In this document: positions 7,103 to 11,546 of the stretch, piece by piece
How the letters are laid out: each line of letters starts with the position of its first letter
Numbering within the stretch: position 1 is the stretch's first letter
From: Sphingopyxis sp. BE259
Lineage (GTDB): Bacteria > Pseudomonadota > Alphaproteobacteria > Sphingomonadales > Sphingomonadaceae
Assembly (NCBI RefSeq): GCF_031457495.1
Contig: NZ_JAVDWM010000001.1
Span: 3,460,001 to 3,524,000, forward strand
Length of the DNA stretch: 64,000 bases
Reading direction: 5' to 3'
Translations under genes and position numbers: made by a program
Notes under the pieces: generated by a model
What the model was told of the DNA's origin: nothing
The model's input: only the letters and a program-made list of their open reading frames with translations
Database searches by the model: none

Positions 7103-7190
7103 GTCGCCCCAGCGAAAGCTGGGGCGGCAGTCGACCTGTTCCTTCCTCGCCGCGCAAACCGCTGGCGGCCCCAGCTTTCGCTGGGGCGAC
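7103..7190. repeat. Composite palindromic repeat between sufE and the psp operon
   Basis: Outer arms at 7103-7125 and 7168-7190 are perfect reverse complements (about 23 bp). Each arm is itself a small hairpin (CCCCAGC-GAAA-GCTGGGG on the left, CCCCAGC-TTTC-GCTGGGG on the right). It belongs to the same architecture as several other intergenic repeats in this window. Confidence 0.9.
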
Positions 7191-7196
7191 GAAATC

Positions 7197-7451
7197 TTAC
7201 AAATCCACTCCCGCGGCAATCGCTTCCAGCTTGCGCAGCCGTTCTTTCAGGTCGGCAATTTCGATGCGCGATCCGGCGTGCGGGACCGCGGCGTCGTGGC
7301 CGATGCTGTGTCCCGCGGCGAGTTCTTCGCGCTTGAGCTGGATCCAGTCGCGCCAGCCGCGCAACGCCGCCAAGCTCATGATCGTCAGCGCGGTGAGCGC
7401 GACGGCGCTGACCATCAGGTTGGAGGCAAGATCGGACGTGATGGTGGCCAT
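7197..7451 (-). CDS. Small membrane/coiled-coil protein, last gene of the psp operon
   Basis: The 84-aa product has one hydrophobic segment (about residues 12-32) followed by a charged helix ending in a heptad-like ADLKERLRKLEAIAAG. That ending is a diverged form of the RxxVLERIAT motif shared by its neighbours. The start at 7451 is chosen because AAGGAG precedes it; the open frame extends further but without such a site. It is the most divergent of five PspB-like proteins after pspC. Its function is unknown; a structural or regulatory role with PspA/B/C is inferred from context. Confidence 0.7.
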   Translation of the reverse strand: MATITSDLASNLMVSAVALTALTIMSLAALRGWRDWIQLKREELAAGHSIGHDAAVPHAGSRIEIADLKERLRKLEAIAAGVDL

Positions 7452-7479
7452 CGTTCGGCTCCTTTCTTCGTCGGGGTCG

Positions 7480-7746
7480 TCAGGAGTGCGACCGGTCGCG
7501 CAGCTTCTCGATTTCCTCATCGAGTGTTACGGCGCGGTTGTGGTCGGTGGCGATGCGTTCGAGCACCTGGATGCGATCTTTGAGTGCGCGGATTTCGGCG
7601 AGCAGCGCCTTGGTCTCACCGGTGTCGGCCGGGGGGGCGAAAAATTCATTGCCCTTGTTGTCGCGGCGCACGCCATATTTGGCGCGGACGACGCTGCCGA
7701 TGGTGACGATCAGGACAATGCCGATTACCATTTCAAACGGGTTCAT
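7480..7746 (-). CDS. PspB-like small membrane protein (paralogue 4)
   Basis: The 88-aa protein has an N-terminal membrane segment (about 5-22), a short basic linker (RAKYGVRRDNKG) and a C-terminal coiled coil. The coiled coil contains DRIQVLERIATDHN and ends EIEKLRDR. The VLERIATD element and the EIEKLR end are shared with the two proteins encoded upstream. Topology matches PspB (membrane anchor plus cytoplasmic coiled coil), but this is not a PspB orthologue. It is in the operon after pspC. Function is not known. Confidence 0.75.
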   Translation of the reverse strand: MNPFEMVIGIVLIVTIGSVVRAKYGVRRDNKGNEFFAPPADTGETKALLAEIRALKDRIQVLERIATDHNRAVTLDEEIEKLRDRSHS

Positions 7747-7779
7747 GGGGGGATCCTTCCGTATTATTTTATAGTTGCT

Positions 7780-8028
7780 TCAGTTCAGCGGGGCGTCGCG
7801 CAGCTTTTCGATTTCGTCGGCGACGTCGATTCCCTTGTCGGTAACGATCCGCTCAAGAACGCGCACTCGCTGCTCCAGTCGTTCGGTCGCCGCCGCATAT
7901 TGCGCGGCCTTTTCGGCGGTCATTTCGGACTGCTTCTCGATCATCTTTTGCTGGTGCTTCGACCAGAAGATGAAACCGGCGAGCAGGAAGGGAGCGAGGG
8001 GGATCAGTATCCAGATGGCGTCGCCCAT
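7780..8028 (-). CDS. PspB-like small membrane protein (paralogue 3)
   Basis: An 82-aa protein with an N-terminal membrane helix (IWILIPLAPFLLAGFIFW) and a long coiled coil containing RVRVLERIVTDKG and ending DEIEKLRD. The last 25 residues are close to those of the 88-aa neighbour and similar to the 107-aa neighbour. A GGAG site precedes the ATG. The gene lies 11 bp after the preceding stop, so it is part of the psp operon. Role inferred only from operon context and PspB-like topology. Confidence 0.75.
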   Translation of the reverse strand: MGDAIWILIPLAPFLLAGFIFWSKHQQKMIEKQSEMTAEKAAQYAAATERLEQRVRVLERIVTDKGIDVADEIEKLRDAPLN

Positions 8029-8039
8029 GACGGGTCTCC

Positions 8040-8363
8040 TCAGTTCGCCGGGCGCCGCAGCGCCTCGATCTCGTGGCTCAGCCGGCTGCCTTCGTCGGTG
8101 ACGATGCGTTCGACCACCGCAAGGCGGTCCTTCACCGAACCCAGTTCGGCGCGCAGCTGGGCGTTTTCCTGGCTGAGCAGCTTGACGCGCTCCATCGCCT
8201 CGTCACTGGTCTTGGGATAGACCGCCTGACCCCAGGCACCGTCGAGCGGGTAGCCGTTCTTGACGCGGAGCCAAGTGGTAAAGACCCAGCCAGCGACCGT
8301 CAGCACGCCGATGATGGCGGCGGCGGGGGCAATGGCGTTTAGTAATTCAGCGTTCATCGTCAT
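8040..8363 (-). CDS. PspB-like small membrane protein (paralogue 2)
   Basis: A 107-aa protein with one membrane segment (about 12-30), then FTTWLRVKNGYPLDGAWG, then a coiled coil with AVVERIVTDEG and HEIEALRR. It is clearly homologous to the 99-aa protein encoded just before it: both have GW-FTTW-R-K-GYP, a WG pair, a QENAQL/DDNAKL segment and the VERI/LERI motif. The pair looks like a tandem duplication. It sits 5 bp after that gene. Function unknown; likely inner membrane with a cytoplasmic coiled coil. Confidence 0.8.
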   Translation of the reverse strand: MTMNAELLNAIAPAAAIIGVLTVAGWVFTTWLRVKNGYPLDGAWGQAVYPKTSDEAMERVKLLSQENAQLRAELGSVKDRLAVVERIVTDEGSRLSHEIEALRRPAN

Positions 8364-8368
8364 TCCCC

Positions 8369-8668
8369 TCAGCGCAGGCGGTCGATCTGGTCGGCGAGCT
8401 GCGCCGCCTGACCATTGGTTTCTGTCGCGATGCGTTCGAGCACCGAAATCCGCTCTTCCAATCGGCTGACCTGGCCTGCCAGCTTGGCATTGTCATCGGT
8501 CAGCAGCGCGATTTTTCGATCAGCGTCGGGGGCGGTTCGATGAACCGTGCCGCCCCACTCATTCTCGATCGGATAGCCGTGCTTGGCGCGGATCCACGTG
8601 GTGAACATCCAGCCGCCGATCGACAATGCGATAATGGCGAGGACGAAACCGGTACCACCGAAATTCAT
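8369..8668 (-). CDS. PspB-like small membrane protein (paralogue 1)
   Basis: A 99-aa protein with an N-terminal membrane helix (FVLAIIALSIGGWMFTTW), the conserved stretch IRAKHGYPIENEWGG and a coiled coil (DDNAKLAGQVSRLEERISVLERIATE). It is the nearest relative of the 107-aa protein next to it. The gene is the first of five after pspC in the psp operon; the gap from pspC is 67 bp. Function is not recognised. The WG and GYP residues kept between the pair suggest a specific contact surface beyond a simple coiled coil. Confidence 0.8.
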   Translation of the reverse strand: MNFGGTGFVLAIIALSIGGWMFTTWIRAKHGYPIENEWGGTVHRTAPDADRKIALLTDDNAKLAGQVSRLEERISVLERIATETNGQAAQLADQIDRLR

Positions 8669-8735
8669 CTGTCTTCTCCCTGTTGCTTCCAGCCCGCCCG
8701 GCGTCGCTGCATGTCGCCCGGTTCAACGCCCCGGA

Positions 8736-9116
8736 TTACCGGAGGGCGTCGATTTCGTCGGCGAGACGGCGGTTGTGGCTGGTGTAATATTGTTCGATGT
8801 CGGCCAGACGGCGGTCGATGTCGCGGAAGCGTGACTTGATGTCGCGGGTCGATGCGGTCGGATTGCTGCGCACCCCCTGCCAGAACTTCGCTTCCTCACG
8901 CGAGCCATAGAGCGCGAAAGGCTTGGGCGTGCCCATCCAGGCGATCATCCAGTAAGCGATCAGCGTCCAGGGAAAGCCGCCCATCAAGGTGAGCAGCACC
9001 GCGCCAACGCGGACCCAGAGGACGTCGACGCCGCTGTAGTCAGCGATCCCGGCGCACACGCCGCTCCATTTGGCGTTCTGCTTGTCGAGGTAGAATTTCG
9101 TGCGGCTGGCAGACAT
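8736..9116 (-). CDS. pspC: Phage shock protein C (PspC domain)
   Basis: PspC is an inner membrane protein that, with PspB, senses envelope stress and draws PspA away from PspF. The 126-aa product has the PspC domain near residues 4-65 (KFYLDKQNAKWSGVCAGIADYSGVD, then a membrane segment with GGFPWTLIAYWMIAW). Its C-terminal helix ends RRLADEIDALR, reminiscent of the ends of the downstream small proteins. The start at 9116 is preceded by GGAGGAA, much better than the upstream in-frame ATG. It lies one base from pspB. Confidence 0.93.
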   Translation of the reverse strand: MSASRTKFYLDKQNAKWSGVCAGIADYSGVDVLWVRVGAVLLTLMGGFPWTLIAYWMIAWMGTPKPFALYGSREEAKFWQGVRSNPTASTRDIKSRFRDIDRRLADIEQYYTSHNRRLADEIDALR

Positions 9117-9117
9117 C

Positions 9118-9393
9118 TCAATTCCTCCGGCTGGTATTTTCGAGTTGCGCCAGTTCTTCATCGCTACGCACCGCGGGGCGGAAGTCGGGATGGTCGGCGC
9201 TGATGATGCGTTCGACGGTGTGCAGGCGGCTTTCGAGCCTTCGCGCGGTGTCGTACAATTCGTCGAGCAGTTGCTCGTCCTCTCCGGTCAGCGTCTTGGC
9301 CTGTTTCCACTTGGTGATGTAGTGGAGGATCAGCCAGGGCAGACCGAGGAAGAGCGTTCCGATGACGATCGGGATAACGATGATTTCTTCCAT
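9118..9393 (-). CDS. pspB: Phage shock protein B
   Basis: A 91-aa inner membrane protein: one N-terminal membrane helix (EEIIVIPIVIGTLFLGLPWLIL), then HYITKWKQAK and a cytoplasmic coiled coil (LLDELYDTARRLESRLHTVERIIS). This matches the PspB layout including the ARRLESRLHTVERI segment, which is the likely ancestral form of the VLERI motif in the five later genes. It works with PspC to sense stress. The gene lies between pspA and pspC with gaps of 12 bp or less. Confidence 0.92.
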   Translation of the reverse strand: MEEIIVIPIVIGTLFLGLPWLILHYITKWKQAKTLTGEDEQLLDELYDTARRLESRLHTVERIISADHPDFRPAVRSDEELAQLENTSRRN

Positions 9394-9405: not shown

Positions 9406-10071
9406 TTATTGCTTGCTTGCTTGCGCGGCCTTCAGCGCGGCGAGTTCGTCGGCGACCTTGTCGGCGGCCTGCAACTCGGCAATCTCCTCGTCGAGCGACT
9501 TTTTGTAACCCAGGTTCAGCGCATCGGCGCGGCCTTCGGCTTCGTCGACGCGGCGTTCGAGGATGTCGAAACGCGAGAAGGCATCTTCGACGCGGTCGCC
9601 GTTGGTCATTTCGCGCAGCTTATACTTGTTCTCGGCGCTTTCGAGGCGGGTCGAGACGTTCGACTGGCGGGCGCGCGCTTCGCTGAGTTTTTTCTGCAGC
9701 TTGGCAATGTCGTCCTCATAGCCCTTGAGCGCGTCGTCGAGGACGGCGATCTCGCTCTTCAGACGTTCGGCCATGTCGCCAGCCTTCTGCTTTTCGACCA
9801 GCGCGGCGGTGGCCAGGTCTTCGCGGTCCTTCGACAGCGCGAGTTCGGCCTTTTCCTTCCAGCTGTCCTGGAGGCTTTCCAGCTTGGCGATGTGGCGGCG
9901 CATTTCCTTTTGGTCGGCGATCGTGCGCGCGGCAGAGGCGCGCACTTCGACCAGCGTCTCGTTCATCTCGAATATGATCTGGCGAATCATCTTTTCCGGA
10001 TCCTCGGCACGGTCGAGCAGATCGGTGACGTTGGCAGCGATGATGTCGCGGGTTCGTGAAAAAATACCCAT
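9406..10071 (-). CDS. pspA: Phage shock protein A (PspA/IM30 family)
   Basis: PspA is a peripheral membrane coiled-coil protein that stabilises damaged inner membrane and, when free, inhibits the sigma-54 activator PspF. The 221-aa sequence begins MGIFSRTRDIIAANVTDLLD, the family N-terminal amphipathic helix, followed by continuous coiled coil with the AEDPEKMIRQIIFEM signature at 22-36. Length is as in E. coli PspA. AGGAG precedes the ATG. A terminator-like hairpin (10114-10157) lies just upstream, so expression may be attenuated. Confidence 0.96.
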   Translation of the reverse strand: MGIFSRTRDIIAANVTDLLDRAEDPEKMIRQIIFEMNETLVEVRASAARTIADQKEMRRHIAKLESLQDSWKEKAELALSKDREDLATAALVEKQKAGDMAERLKSEIAVLDDALKGYEDDIAKLQKKLSEARARQSNVSTRLESAENKYKLREMTNGDRVEDAFSRFDILERRVDEAEGRADALNLGYKKSLDEEIAELQAADKVADELAALKAAQASKQ

Positions 10072-10163: not shown

Positions 10164-10334
10164 TCAGGCCAAAGCACTGACCGCCGGGGACATGACAGCG
10201 GCAACCAGCGGGCCGGCGGGGGTGCCGGTAACGCTGGCGGCGACCTGCGGCTGGTCGATCACACCGACGAGGATGGCCAACGCTCCGGCCGTGCTCAGCA
10301 CGAAAGTGGCGGCTTGGGCAAACATCGACTTCAT
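10164..10334 (-). CDS. 56-aa leader protein of the psp operon
   Basis: Short ORF translated by eye from the sequence: it begins MKSMFAQAATFVLSTAGALA and ends MSPAVSALA. An AAGGAAGG ribosome site lies nine bases before the ATG. The first half is a plausible membrane helix or weak signal peptide; the second half is rich in Ala, Pro, Gly and Val with no charged cluster. It is the first gene after the sigma-54 promoter, and its stop codon abuts overlapping alternative hairpins before pspA. I do not recognise a family. It may be a real small membrane protein of the Psp response, a leader peptide used for attenuation, or both. Confidence 0.65.
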   Translation of the reverse strand: MKSMFAQAATFVLSTAGALAILVGVIDQPQVAASVTGTPAGPLVAAVMSPAVSALA

Positions 10335-10395: not shown

Positions 10396-10411
10396 TGCAG
10401 ACACCGTGCCA
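10396..10411 (-). promoter_or_regulatory. Sigma-54 promoter of the psp operon
   Basis: On the minus strand the sequence is TGGCACGGTGTCTGCA. The -24 GG and -12 GC are exactly 10 bases apart, matching the consensus TGGCAC-N5-TTGCA except for one base in the -12 box. Transcription would start near 10384, about 50 bases before the leader ORF. The divergent PspF, a sigma-54 activator, supports the assignment. Confidence 0.88.
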
Positions 10412-10511
10412 ATTACGCCAAGGTTCACAAAACTGCGGTTTTTGGTACGCAAACGACGCCGCGCTGCGATTTGCCTTGCCAACCAGCGGGAAATTTTGCC
10501 AATGATTGGGA

Positions 10512-11546
10512 ATGGAGCGCGAGACCCAATTCATCGGCCAGTCGGCGGCGTTTCAGGATGCCGTCGAACGCGCCAGCCTGGCCGCCTCGCTCGATCGCCC
10601 GGTGCTGGTGATCGGCGAGCGCGGGACCGGCAAGGAACTGATCGCCGAGCGGCTCCACCGCCTGTCGACGCGCTGGGACCGGCCCTATGTCATCCTGAAC
10701 TGCGCCGCGATGCCCGAGACGCTGATCGAGAGCGAATTGTTCGGGCACGAGGCCGGCGCGTTTACCGGCGCGACGCGCACCCGCGCGGGGCGGTTCGAGG
10801 AAGCCGACGGCGGCACCTTGTTTCTCGACGAACTGGCGACGATGTCGATGGGGGCGCAGGAACGGTTGCTGCGCGCGGTCGAATATGGCGAGGTCACCCG
10901 CGTCGGATCGTCGCGCCCGATCCGCGTCGATGTCCGCATCGTCGCGGCGACCAACGAGCATCTGCCGGCGCTGGTCGAAGAAAATCGGTTCCGGGCCGAT
11001 TTGCTCGACCGGCTGTCGTTCGAGGTCATCACCCTGCCCCCGCTGCGCGCCCGCGAAGGCGATATCGAGGTGCTCGCGACCTATTTTGGCCAGCGTATGG
11101 CGGCGGTGCTCGGCTGGGAAGAATGGCCGGGCTTTGGCCCGCGCGCGCTCGCGGCGATGGAGGGGCATGACTGGCCGGGCAATGTCCGCGAACTGCGCAA
11201 CGTCATCGAACGCGCCATCTATCGCTGGGCCGATCCCGAGAAGCCCGTCGATGCGGTGAATTTCGATCCGTTTGCTAGCCCGTGGCAGCCGGTCGCGCGC
11301 CAGGGGCCAGCGCCCGCGGATAGTGCCGGTGCACCCGCGGCGCCCTCCAGCCCCGCGCCTGCGGCAACCGCGATGCCCACCGGCGCGGTCAGCGACATGC
11401 GCGCCGCGGTCGATGCCTACGAACGCCAGATCCTATCGGATACGATGGCACGCTGCCGCTTTAACCAGAAGGTCGCCGCCGAAGCATTGGGACTGAGTTA
11501 TGACCAGATCCGCCATGCGTTGAAGAAGCATGGGCTGAATCAATAG
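10512..11546 (+). CDS. pspF: PspF-type sigma-54-dependent transcriptional activator
   Basis: A 344-aa AAA+ enhancer-binding protein without an N-terminal receiver domain, as in PspF. It has Walker A GERGTGKE at 35-42, the sigma-54 contact loop GAFTGA at 82-87 and Walker B with Asp106-Glu107. An arginine-finger region (FRADLLDRLSFEVI) and a C-terminal helix-turn-helix (VAAEALGLSYDQIRHALKKHGL) complete it. A Pro/Ala-rich linker of about 40 residues before the helix-turn-helix is longer than in E. coli. It is divergent from the psp operon and should activate the sigma-54 promoter at 10396-10411, with PspA as its inhibitor. ATG is preferred over the TTG two codons earlier. Confidence 0.93.
   Translation: MERETQFIGQSAAFQDAVERASLAASLDRPVLVIGERGTGKELIAERLHRLSTRWDRPYVILNCAAMPETLIESELFGHEAGAFTGATRTRAGRFEEADGGTLFLDELATMSMGAQERLLRAVEYGEVTRVGSSRPIRVDVRIVAATNEHLPALVEENRFRADLLDRLSFEVITLPPLRAREGDIEVLATYFGQRMAAVLGWEEWPGFGPRALAAMEGHDWPGNVRELRNVIERAIYRWADPEKPVDAVNFDPFASPWQPVARQGPAPADSAGAPAAPSSPAPAATAMPTGAVSDMRAAVDAYERQILSDTMARCRFNQKVAAEALGLSYDQIRHALKKHGLNQ

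Follow-up and report, generated by a model that had tools for sequence, protein, structure and literature searches.

A Lineage-Specific Expansion of Small PspB-Like Genes behind pspC in Sphingopyxis sp. BE259 and Other Sphingomonadaceae

Introduction

The phage shock protein (Psp) system is the textbook stress response of the bacterial inner membrane, and the mode by which PspB and PspC sense damage is an open question. This report concerns five small genes, here called P1 to P5, that follow pspC in Sphingopyxis sp. BE259 (RefSeq assembly GCF_031457495.1). They lie in a stretch of 64,000 nucleotides, positions 3,460,001 to 3,524,000 of contig NZ_JAVDWM010000001.1, which we refer to as the window and from whose first nucleotide all coordinates of features are counted unless stated otherwise. 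A preliminary description had proposed that the five genes form a PspB-derived family whose products may make hetero-oligomers that tune stress sensing or PspA recruitment.

In Escherichia coli, according to one study, PspB self-associates and binds PspC, the zipper of PspC is needed for contact with PspA and for induction, and PspG is an inner-membrane effector that is dispensable for induction (PMC3068692). Work on Yersinia describes PspBC as sequestering PspA from PspF and, separately, as protecting against mislocalized secretins (PMC5596341). Multiplication of PspB-like genes has been touched upon in print: the available text of one survey mentions “PspB duplicates” in the psp operon in a single clause, with AOL22920.1 as the example, and reports PspC fused to a “divergent C-terminal PspB” (PMC11237479). 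The idea of more than one PspB-like gene per operon is the same as ours, but orthogroups, lineage limits, a PspC-type end, P5, and mosaicism do not appear in that text. The available part of another article makes no mention of PspB arrays (PMC9239133), and no study of these genes in sphingomonads was found among the best-ranked titles, an unremarked listing in supplements or web tables being possible. As far as these partial sources go, one clause is known in print, and the extent of the expansion, its orthogroups, the PspC-type end, the companion P5, and the mosaic P3 are new.

Results and Discussion

Five small genes behind pspC

The preliminary description covered positions 7197 to 9393, which hold pspB, pspC, and the five small genes; pspA (10071 to 9406), which it also named, lies outside that interval. 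The genes in question, all on the minus strand, are as follows.

9406 to 10071, minus strand: pspA (TIGR02977, 268.7 bits; cut-off, 242.95)
9118 to 9393, minus strand: pspB (PF06667, 96.7 bits; cut-off, 25.6; TIGR02976, 91.5 bits; cut-off, 51.7)
8736 to 9116, minus strand: pspC, whose C-terminal tail is matched by the array profiles (TIGR02978, 120.5 bits; cut-off, 104)
8369 to 8668, minus strand: P1, 99 amino acids (aa); one transmembrane (TM) segment, FTTWIRAKHGYP, a coiled coil with Asn at an “a” position, and the end module
8040 to 8363, minus strand: P2, 107 aa; one TM segment, TTWLRVKNGYP, a coiled coil with an invariant Asn, and the end module
7780 to 8028, minus strand: P3, 82 aa; one TM segment, an EKAAQYAA coil, and the end module; a mosaic gene
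7480 to 7746, minus strand: P4, 88 aa; an MNPFEMV TM segment, coil, and the end module
7197 to 7451, minus strand: P5, 84 aa; one TM segment, GWRDWIQLKREEL, and C-terminal RIEIADLKERLRKLEAIAAGVDL; the last gene

The open reading frames (ORFs) have the lengths first given for them (99, 107, 82, 88, and 84 codons), and the motifs reported at the outset are present: VLERIAT in P1 and P4, VLERIVT in P3, and VVERIVT in P2, with KLEAIAA instead in P5; FTTW-R-K-GYP and WG in both P1 and P2; and RLHTVERI in PspB. A longer start at 7520 is possible for P5, but it would overlap P4. In Pfam and NCBIfam scans of the window proteins, none of the five matched any family above its cut-off.

The window was compared with 60 fetched loci, hand-chosen from 142 genomes with a pspC match and covering most genera, for a total of 61 loci and 3,836 ORFs. 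Searches with P1 to P4 (phmmer, E < 1e-3) returned 162 ORFs: 160 array genes downstream of pspC and two PspB proteins. The array members fall into four orthogroups, P1 (26 proteins), P2 (36), P3 (53), and P4 (34); 10 members are unassigned, 8 from loci of the same family and those of L051 and L057. One locus (L007) was left out of the five alignments, A1 to A5, as near-identical to L004, and the P5 group excludes L015:4420-4731, an ORF of ambiguous assignment. Aligned against each other with hhalign, the P1 to P4 profiles give probabilities of 98.6 to 99.9% over nearly their full length, with reversed decoys at 15% or below, and the P3 profile searched against the whole 3.67-Mb genome at E ≤ 10 finds five matches: P1, P2, P3, P4, and the tail of PspC.

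Judged by these profiles, P1 to P4 are true paralogues, and for them the claim of a duplicated family stands. It extends less securely to P5, which is linked by profile to P3 (93%) and P4 (91%), weakly to P2 (56%), and at 14% to P1; in its own genome the P5 profile matches itself only. The kinship of P5 is less certain than that of P1 to P4: the protein shares their layout but may have diverged further or may simply have converged on it.

Conservation of the array

P1-P4-like genes stand behind pspC in all 40 loci of the Sphingomonadaceae (the window and 39 others), with at least three in 39; 6 such genes occur in 3 loci, 5 in 7, 4 in 17, 3 in 12, and 1 in 1. P3 is present in 39 of these loci, P2 and P5 in 36 each, P4 in 34, and P1 in 25. 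There is one P2 per locus (36 in 36 loci), and the 26 P1 proteins come from 25 loci. Gene order is nearly constant: P5 is last in 36 of 36 loci, P2 precedes P4 in all 31 loci with both, P1 directly precedes P2 in 21 of 24 loci with both, and the full order P1-P2-P3-P4-P5 is found in 11. The preliminary description had named two outcomes that would refute it, a lack of profile links among the proteins or to PspB and a lack of synteny with pspABC in relatives; for P1 to P4 neither occurred.

A search of 297 genomes of the order at 1e-6 gave a match in 247 of 249 genomes of the family, 240 of them with two or more and up to seven, and in 37 of 48 genomes of the order’s other families, 31 with one match and 6 with two; these copy numbers are lower bounds (at most 16 to 17 candidates were scored per genome), and most matches were counted irrespective of their position. 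At 1e-3, matches were found in 16 of 289 genomes at the class level and in 44 of 299 at the phylum level. Eleven of the class-level genomes lie outside the family, and three of these (L069, L072, and L075) hold a small protein of matching form, while the match in L079 is the tail of a PspC itself. In two of the three, from other alphaproteobacteria, the member is flanked within the psp operon by a short PspC-domain gene on one side and pspC on the other (L072, 1471 to 1695; L075, 1474 to 1695).

Stronger matches outside the family, taken from the phylum-level search, formed a second set of loci. Its 20 neighborhoods (18 genomes, mostly Alpha- and Gammaproteobacteria; L098 to L117) contain no pspA, pspB, or pspC within 7 to 8 kb. 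These orphan proteins, for which no family name was found, share the layout of a TM segment followed by an ERIxTD motif, as well as the end module, with P1 to P4; outside the family, the phylum-level search gave at least one to three matches per genome. Such relatives in other proteobacteria suggest that the domain belongs to an older, separate family. The array itself is a genuine and ancient expansion specific to its lineage. Members of the family were also seen as tandem pairs in 8-kb stretches in which no pspA, pspB, or pspC was found, two in the same class (L110 and L117) and one in another class of the phylum (L101).

At least 7,048 database proteins match the P4 profile and at least 8,000 the P5 profile. 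The best 120 matches for each are nearly all unnamed or “hypothetical,” and among the 240 matches listed the closest named one is a Sphingopyxis protein (P0081), 91% identical to P4. The published example of a PspB duplicate, AOL22920.1, is presumably an Erythrobacter protein.

Relationship to PspB and PspC

For comparison with PspB and PspC we used a hidden Markov model (HMM) built solely from direct array matches; an earlier HMM that had drifted (317 members) was replaced, and 20 of the 160 array ORFs, longer than 125 aa, were omitted from building yet scored. Among the 3,836 ORFs this HMM matched (E < 1) 50 of 60 PspB, 57 of 61 PspC, all 36 P5, 3 PspA, and 1 other ORF. In the reverse direction, the PspB HMM matched 139 of the 160 array members and no PspC, PspA, P5, or other ORF, and the PspC HMM matched 128 array members, 6 PspA, 6 PspB, and 5 others, four of which, at 1e-16 to 1e-17, are by sequence further PspC-domain proteins. 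The region of PspC matched by the array profiles is its C-terminal tail.

In hhalign profile alignments, P1 to P4 align with PspB at 84 to 96% (reversed decoys, 4.4% or below); P3 favors PspB (96%, versus 88% for PspC), whereas P1, P2, and P4 reach 92 to 94% with PspC versus 84 to 93% with PspB, and residues 63 to 99 of P1 align with residues 27 to 63 of the PspC tail. The direct similarity of PspB to PspC is weak in these profiles (10%). Of the 52 P3 orthologues, 13 reach PF06667 with E values of 0.01 or lower (best, 5.2e-5); the orphan gammaproteobacterial relative L101 matches the PspB model TIGR02976 at 2.2e-10 over positions 1 to 69 of 75, still below the cut-off; and the P4-like UniRef entry P0056 carries the name “Phage shock protein B.” Profile-level kinship with PspB was thus found for P1 to P4, and not for P5.

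The likeness of P1 to P4 to PspB (PF06667, TIGR02976) lies in an N-terminal TM segment, a coil with the ERI motif in the same register, and the shared operon; the likeness to the C-terminal tail of PspC (part of TIGR02978) lies in a coil followed by a T[DS]...E(I/F)xxL end. None of P1 to P5 matches the PspC domain proper (PF04024) up to E = 1, and the names PspD, PspE, and PspG are absent from their Pfam and NCBIfam matches at E ≤ 1, the presence of such models in those libraries being unconfirmed. PspB had no sequence match in the PDB at E ≤ 0.1.

Generic coiled-coil similarity was rejected as the sole cause of these matches, on the specificity of the array and PspB HMMs among the 3,836 ORFs and of the P3 genome search. 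PspB alone was likewise set aside as the source of the array, since the end module points to PspC. The term “PspB-derived” therefore needs qualification: the layout and coil do tie P1 to P4 to PspB, but the end is of the PspC type, P5 lacks a link to PspB, and no cut-off is passed. Descent from PspB alone is unsupported because the end module is that of PspC.

Architecture of the array proteins

Each of the five groups has one strong hydrophobic segment (group means of the best 19-residue hydropathy, 1.90 to 2.41) and a coil whose heptads, counted from the LE(R/A)I motif, fall in one and the same register in all five, the best of seven registers in each; positions a and d are hydrophobic in 71 to 85% of cases, versus 20 to 32% elsewhere. 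AlphaFold2 monomers agree with the predicted layout of an N-terminal TM segment and a C-terminal coiled coil, as in PspB: P2 has helices at 5 to 35 and 54 to 103 joined by a low-confidence linker (mean predicted local distance difference test score [pLDDT], 80.8; predicted template-modeling score [pTM], 0.35) and P5 at 2 to 47 and 59 to 80 (mean pLDDT, 80.5; pTM, 0.44), the relative placement of the helices carrying no information. The original picture of one membrane helix and a coiled coil in every member is borne out.

The end module, of the type ERIxTD...EIExLR, is found in 140 of 149 P1 to P4 proteins, 47 of 61 PspC, and 6 of 60 PspB, and in 2 to 9% of shuffled tails. Because this module separates PspC from PspB best, we read P1 to P4 as proteins laid out like PspB but ending like PspC. 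A second difference from PspB lies within the coil, where one “a” layer is Asn in 36 of 36 P2 and 25 of 26 P1, Ala in 44 of 52 P3, and mostly Leu in PspB (24 of 31 placed; placement by the motif failed for 29 of 60 PspB, 50 of 61 PspC, and 1 of 53 P3). Buried Asn is a specificity mark of parallel two-stranded coils, and from its position in a layer common to both we infer that P1 and P2 may pair in register.

Charge is more positive after than before the TM segment in 36 of 36 P2, 52 of 52 P3, 29 of 34 P4, and 34 of 36 P5, and in only 11 of 26 P1, which suggests cytoplasmic C termini, with P1 undecided.

Operon signals

Upstream of pspA, in reverse order of the genes listed above, are the following features.

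10164 to 10334, minus strand: a 56-aa leader ORF with a hydrophobic stretch (by eye), probably the first gene of the operon
10397 to 10411, minus strand: a sigma-54 promoter-like site, TGGCACGGTGTCTGC, matching 9 of 10 consensus positions
10506 to 11546, plus strand: pspF, encoding the sigma-54 enhancer-binding activator (TIGR02974, 473 bits; cut-off, 443.55), divergent from the psp operon

A sigma-54-like site with 9 or 10 matches of 10, at most 600 bases upstream of pspA, is present in 59 of 61 loci and in 38 of 40 of the same family; shuffles of the same stretch reach its score in 0 to 4 of 100. The gaps between consecutive array genes, measured after over-long starts had been trimmed by script, have a median of 11 bases (154 gaps, 143 of 40 bases or less, and 61 overlapping). 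The array thus lies behind the promoter-like site, co-directional and tightly spaced, as putative members of the psp operon would.

Of the 40 same-family loci, 35 have a leader ORF of 45 to 81 aa, with a hydrophobic stretch by eye, in the interval from the sigma-54-like site to pspA. These ORFs were picked by eye, the second-listed ORF being taken in a few loci. Although their sequences diverge, Ala is the last residue of all 35, preceded by Leu or Ile (-LA or -IA) in 27. Elsewhere in the order, some families have a leader ORF that looks rich in arginine. The 56-aa ORF of the window has no family match in the Pfam and NCBIfam scans. Such an ORF may be a first gene of the operon that has so far been missed, or it may encode a peptide with a degron at its C terminus.

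An end-module-like stretch at the N terminus of PspA

In 16 of the 40 same-family loci (L014 to L018, L026 to L030, L034 to L036, L038, L040, and L042) the pspA reading frame extends unbroken ahead of MGIFSR and contains a conserved SRLDxE(I/V)ExLRRSPTPT. By a loose pattern, the stretch ends in G(V/A)(P/A)(L/F) just before MGIF in 14 of the 16. The motif pattern was devised after viewing the sequences and occurs in 0 of 3,100 shuffled stretches. The stretch resembles the end module of the array (xLxxEIExLR), GVPL occurs also in the tails of P1 and P3 at several of the same loci, and the matches of the array and PspC HMMs to PspA fall mostly within it. P3 is the first array gene in 15 of the 16 loci, and an unassigned gene is first in the other. 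In the window the stretch is absent, the frame starting at MGIF. If translated, it would give PspA in those loci an end-module-like piece of its own, a hint that the end module may work with PspA.

Mosaic P3 and selective constraint

Ratios of nonsynonymous to synonymous substitution (dN/dS) against four relatives were 0.10 to 0.23 for P1, 0.25 to 0.28 for P2, 0.11 to 0.37 for P4, and 0.03 to 0.20 for P5. For P3 they were 0.08 and 0.13 with two relatives, and 0.93 and 0.54 with the other two (L010 and L005). P1 to P5 look protein-coding and constrained; the P3 exceptions (0.54 and 0.93) are those where the membrane half has been replaced.

Against L010 and L005, the membrane half of P3 is 49 and 40% identical in DNA and the coil half 89 and 87%, while L010 and L005 are similar to one another throughout (81 and 88% for the two halves). 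The membrane half of P3 has thus been swapped and the coil half kept within one genus, and in L021 both membrane types stand side by side as tandem copies. The simplest reading of these alignments would be an exchange between tandem copies in which the coil half was retained.

Near-redundant copies kept by drift as a matter of dosage would explain why the number of P1-P4-like genes varies from one to six per fetched locus and why several loci have P3 in duplicate or triplicate. We regard this as highly improbable, given the retention of separate orthogroups throughout the family in near-constant order and the low dN/dS ratios of all but the mosaic P3.

Behind the end module, P1 and the first P3 often continue into a common C-terminal extension that has a GVPL-like motif (L016, L018, L026, L030, L034, and L036). 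In L016 the tails of the two P3 copies are almost the same, a possible trace of gene conversion.

A possible role as accessory anchors

We propose that the array encodes accessory anchors in the membrane, induced together with the other psp genes, that become part of the PspB/PspC assembly and supply it with further ends of the PspC type, and we give this reading a probability of about one half. For proteins that are encoded alongside PspB and PspC, with an anchor like that of the one and an end like that of the other, this would be the simplest role. The five genes make up the distal end of the psp operon, with the sigma-54-like promoter site upstream, and would probably be expressed in a single PspF-dependent transcript. 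P1 to P4 are an old tandem family of anchors, each with a PspB-like TM segment, a linker, and a coiled coil ending in the module of the PspC tail. Their products, presumably as hetero-oligomers in contact with PspA or PspC, would enter the PspB/PspC complex and present the added ends, and a damaged membrane might then be read, and PspA captured or released, through several anchors with differing membrane segments.

A number of results count against this proposal. In the E. coli study, the binding of PspB to PspC is reported to be independent of the zippers, and the PspC tail is described as putatively periplasmic, two topologies having evidence in their favor (PMC3068692), so that simple docking through a cytoplasmic zipper fits poorly; in P1, charge favors neither topology. 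P5 has the end module in 2 of 36 proteins only and aligns with PspB and PspC at 0.3 and 0.2%. Both end-module patterns were devised after viewing the sequences, and the stricter, earlier one, which was replaced because it excluded the Gln of P3, separates PspB less well (99 of 149 P1 to P4, 55 of 61 PspC, 18 of 60 PspB, and 6 of 36 P5). None of P1 to P5 in the window passes a curated PspB or PspC cut-off, the best PspB scores being those of P3 (PF06667, 17.2 bits against 25.6; TIGR02976, 20.6 against 51.7). Reversed decoys score 73 to 81% for P2 against PspC or its tail. In its own genome a broader array profile ranks P2, P1, P4, P3, and the PspC tail (E = 0.006) ahead of an unrelated frame (0.023), which in turn outranks PspB (0.52). 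In the PDB the array profile matches the coils of influenza HA2 (E = 0.002) and, among the best 60 of 115 matches, nothing else, which we take as a coil artifact. As for distribution, 19 of the 21 loci from other families of the order lack array genes and 2 have one, 2 of the 249 genomes of the family gave no match, and seven class-level matches (L070, L071, L073, L074, and L076 to L078) look like long unrelated coiled-coil proteins.

The points on profiles bear also on a more skeptical explanation, that single-TM proteins with generic coiled coils were duplicated beside pspC, P1 to P4 being related only to each other. Every direct match of a P protein to PspB or PspC falls below the cut-off, and the decoys, HA2, and the long coiled-coil proteins illustrate how far coils alone can score. 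We nevertheless consider such convergence improbable, because the profiles single out PspB and PspC among 3,836 ORFs, the alignments keep the order from TM segment to coil and the LERI register, and L101 approaches the PspB model as closely as described above, albeit below the cut-off.

It is possible, although we think it somewhat unlikely, that the P proteins are effectors and not part of the sensor, bracing or remodeling the inner membrane much as PspG-type effectors do and making no contact with PspA or PspC, their tails being inherited and idle or self-assembling. PspG is itself an inner-membrane effector not required for induction, according to the E. coli work (PMC3068692); the 20 neighborhoods outside the family imply that the domain can work without an adjacent psp operon; and varied membrane segments on a constant coil would suit a scaffold as well. 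Against a pure effector stand the fixed place of the array behind pspC throughout the family, the members of L072 and L075 set between a short PspC-domain gene and pspC, and the end module held in common with PspC.

The accessory-anchor proposal can be carried further, into a combinatorial antenna in which P1 to P5, PspB, and PspC form mixed coils, exchangeable membrane segments read different states of the membrane, and the shared PspC-type end relays each of these states to PspA. Recombination between paralogues would swap membrane halves, as seen in P3, and the coil layers (Asn in P1 and P2, Ala in P3, and Leu in PspB) would set the pairing. This extension is speculative, and we hold it to be doubtful.

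The sensor side of the Psp response appears to have been multiplied throughout a large environmental lineage, giving several anchors that are conserved, differ from one another, and have one end module in common, and membrane-damage sensing there may be wired through many anchors instead of two. The natural division into membrane segment and docking tail provides ready variants for telling the sensing part from the signaling part. The expansion also gives a likely meaning to thousands of mostly unnamed database entries that match the P4 and P5 profiles.

Neighboring elements

A sufE-like gene comes after P5. Between the two lies an 18-base near-palindrome, CCCCAGCGAAAGCTGGGG, in two exact copies of opposite orientation (7107 to 7124, plus strand; 7169 to 7186, minus strand). 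It occurs five times genome-wide, versus no occurrence of the same sequence read backwards, and resembles a repetitive extragenic palindromic (REP) element. Outside the psp operon, the same genome has two more PspC-domain matches over the cut-off (genome positions 1679357 to 1679524 and 2958547 to 2958687), one of which is a minimal protein of 64 aa.

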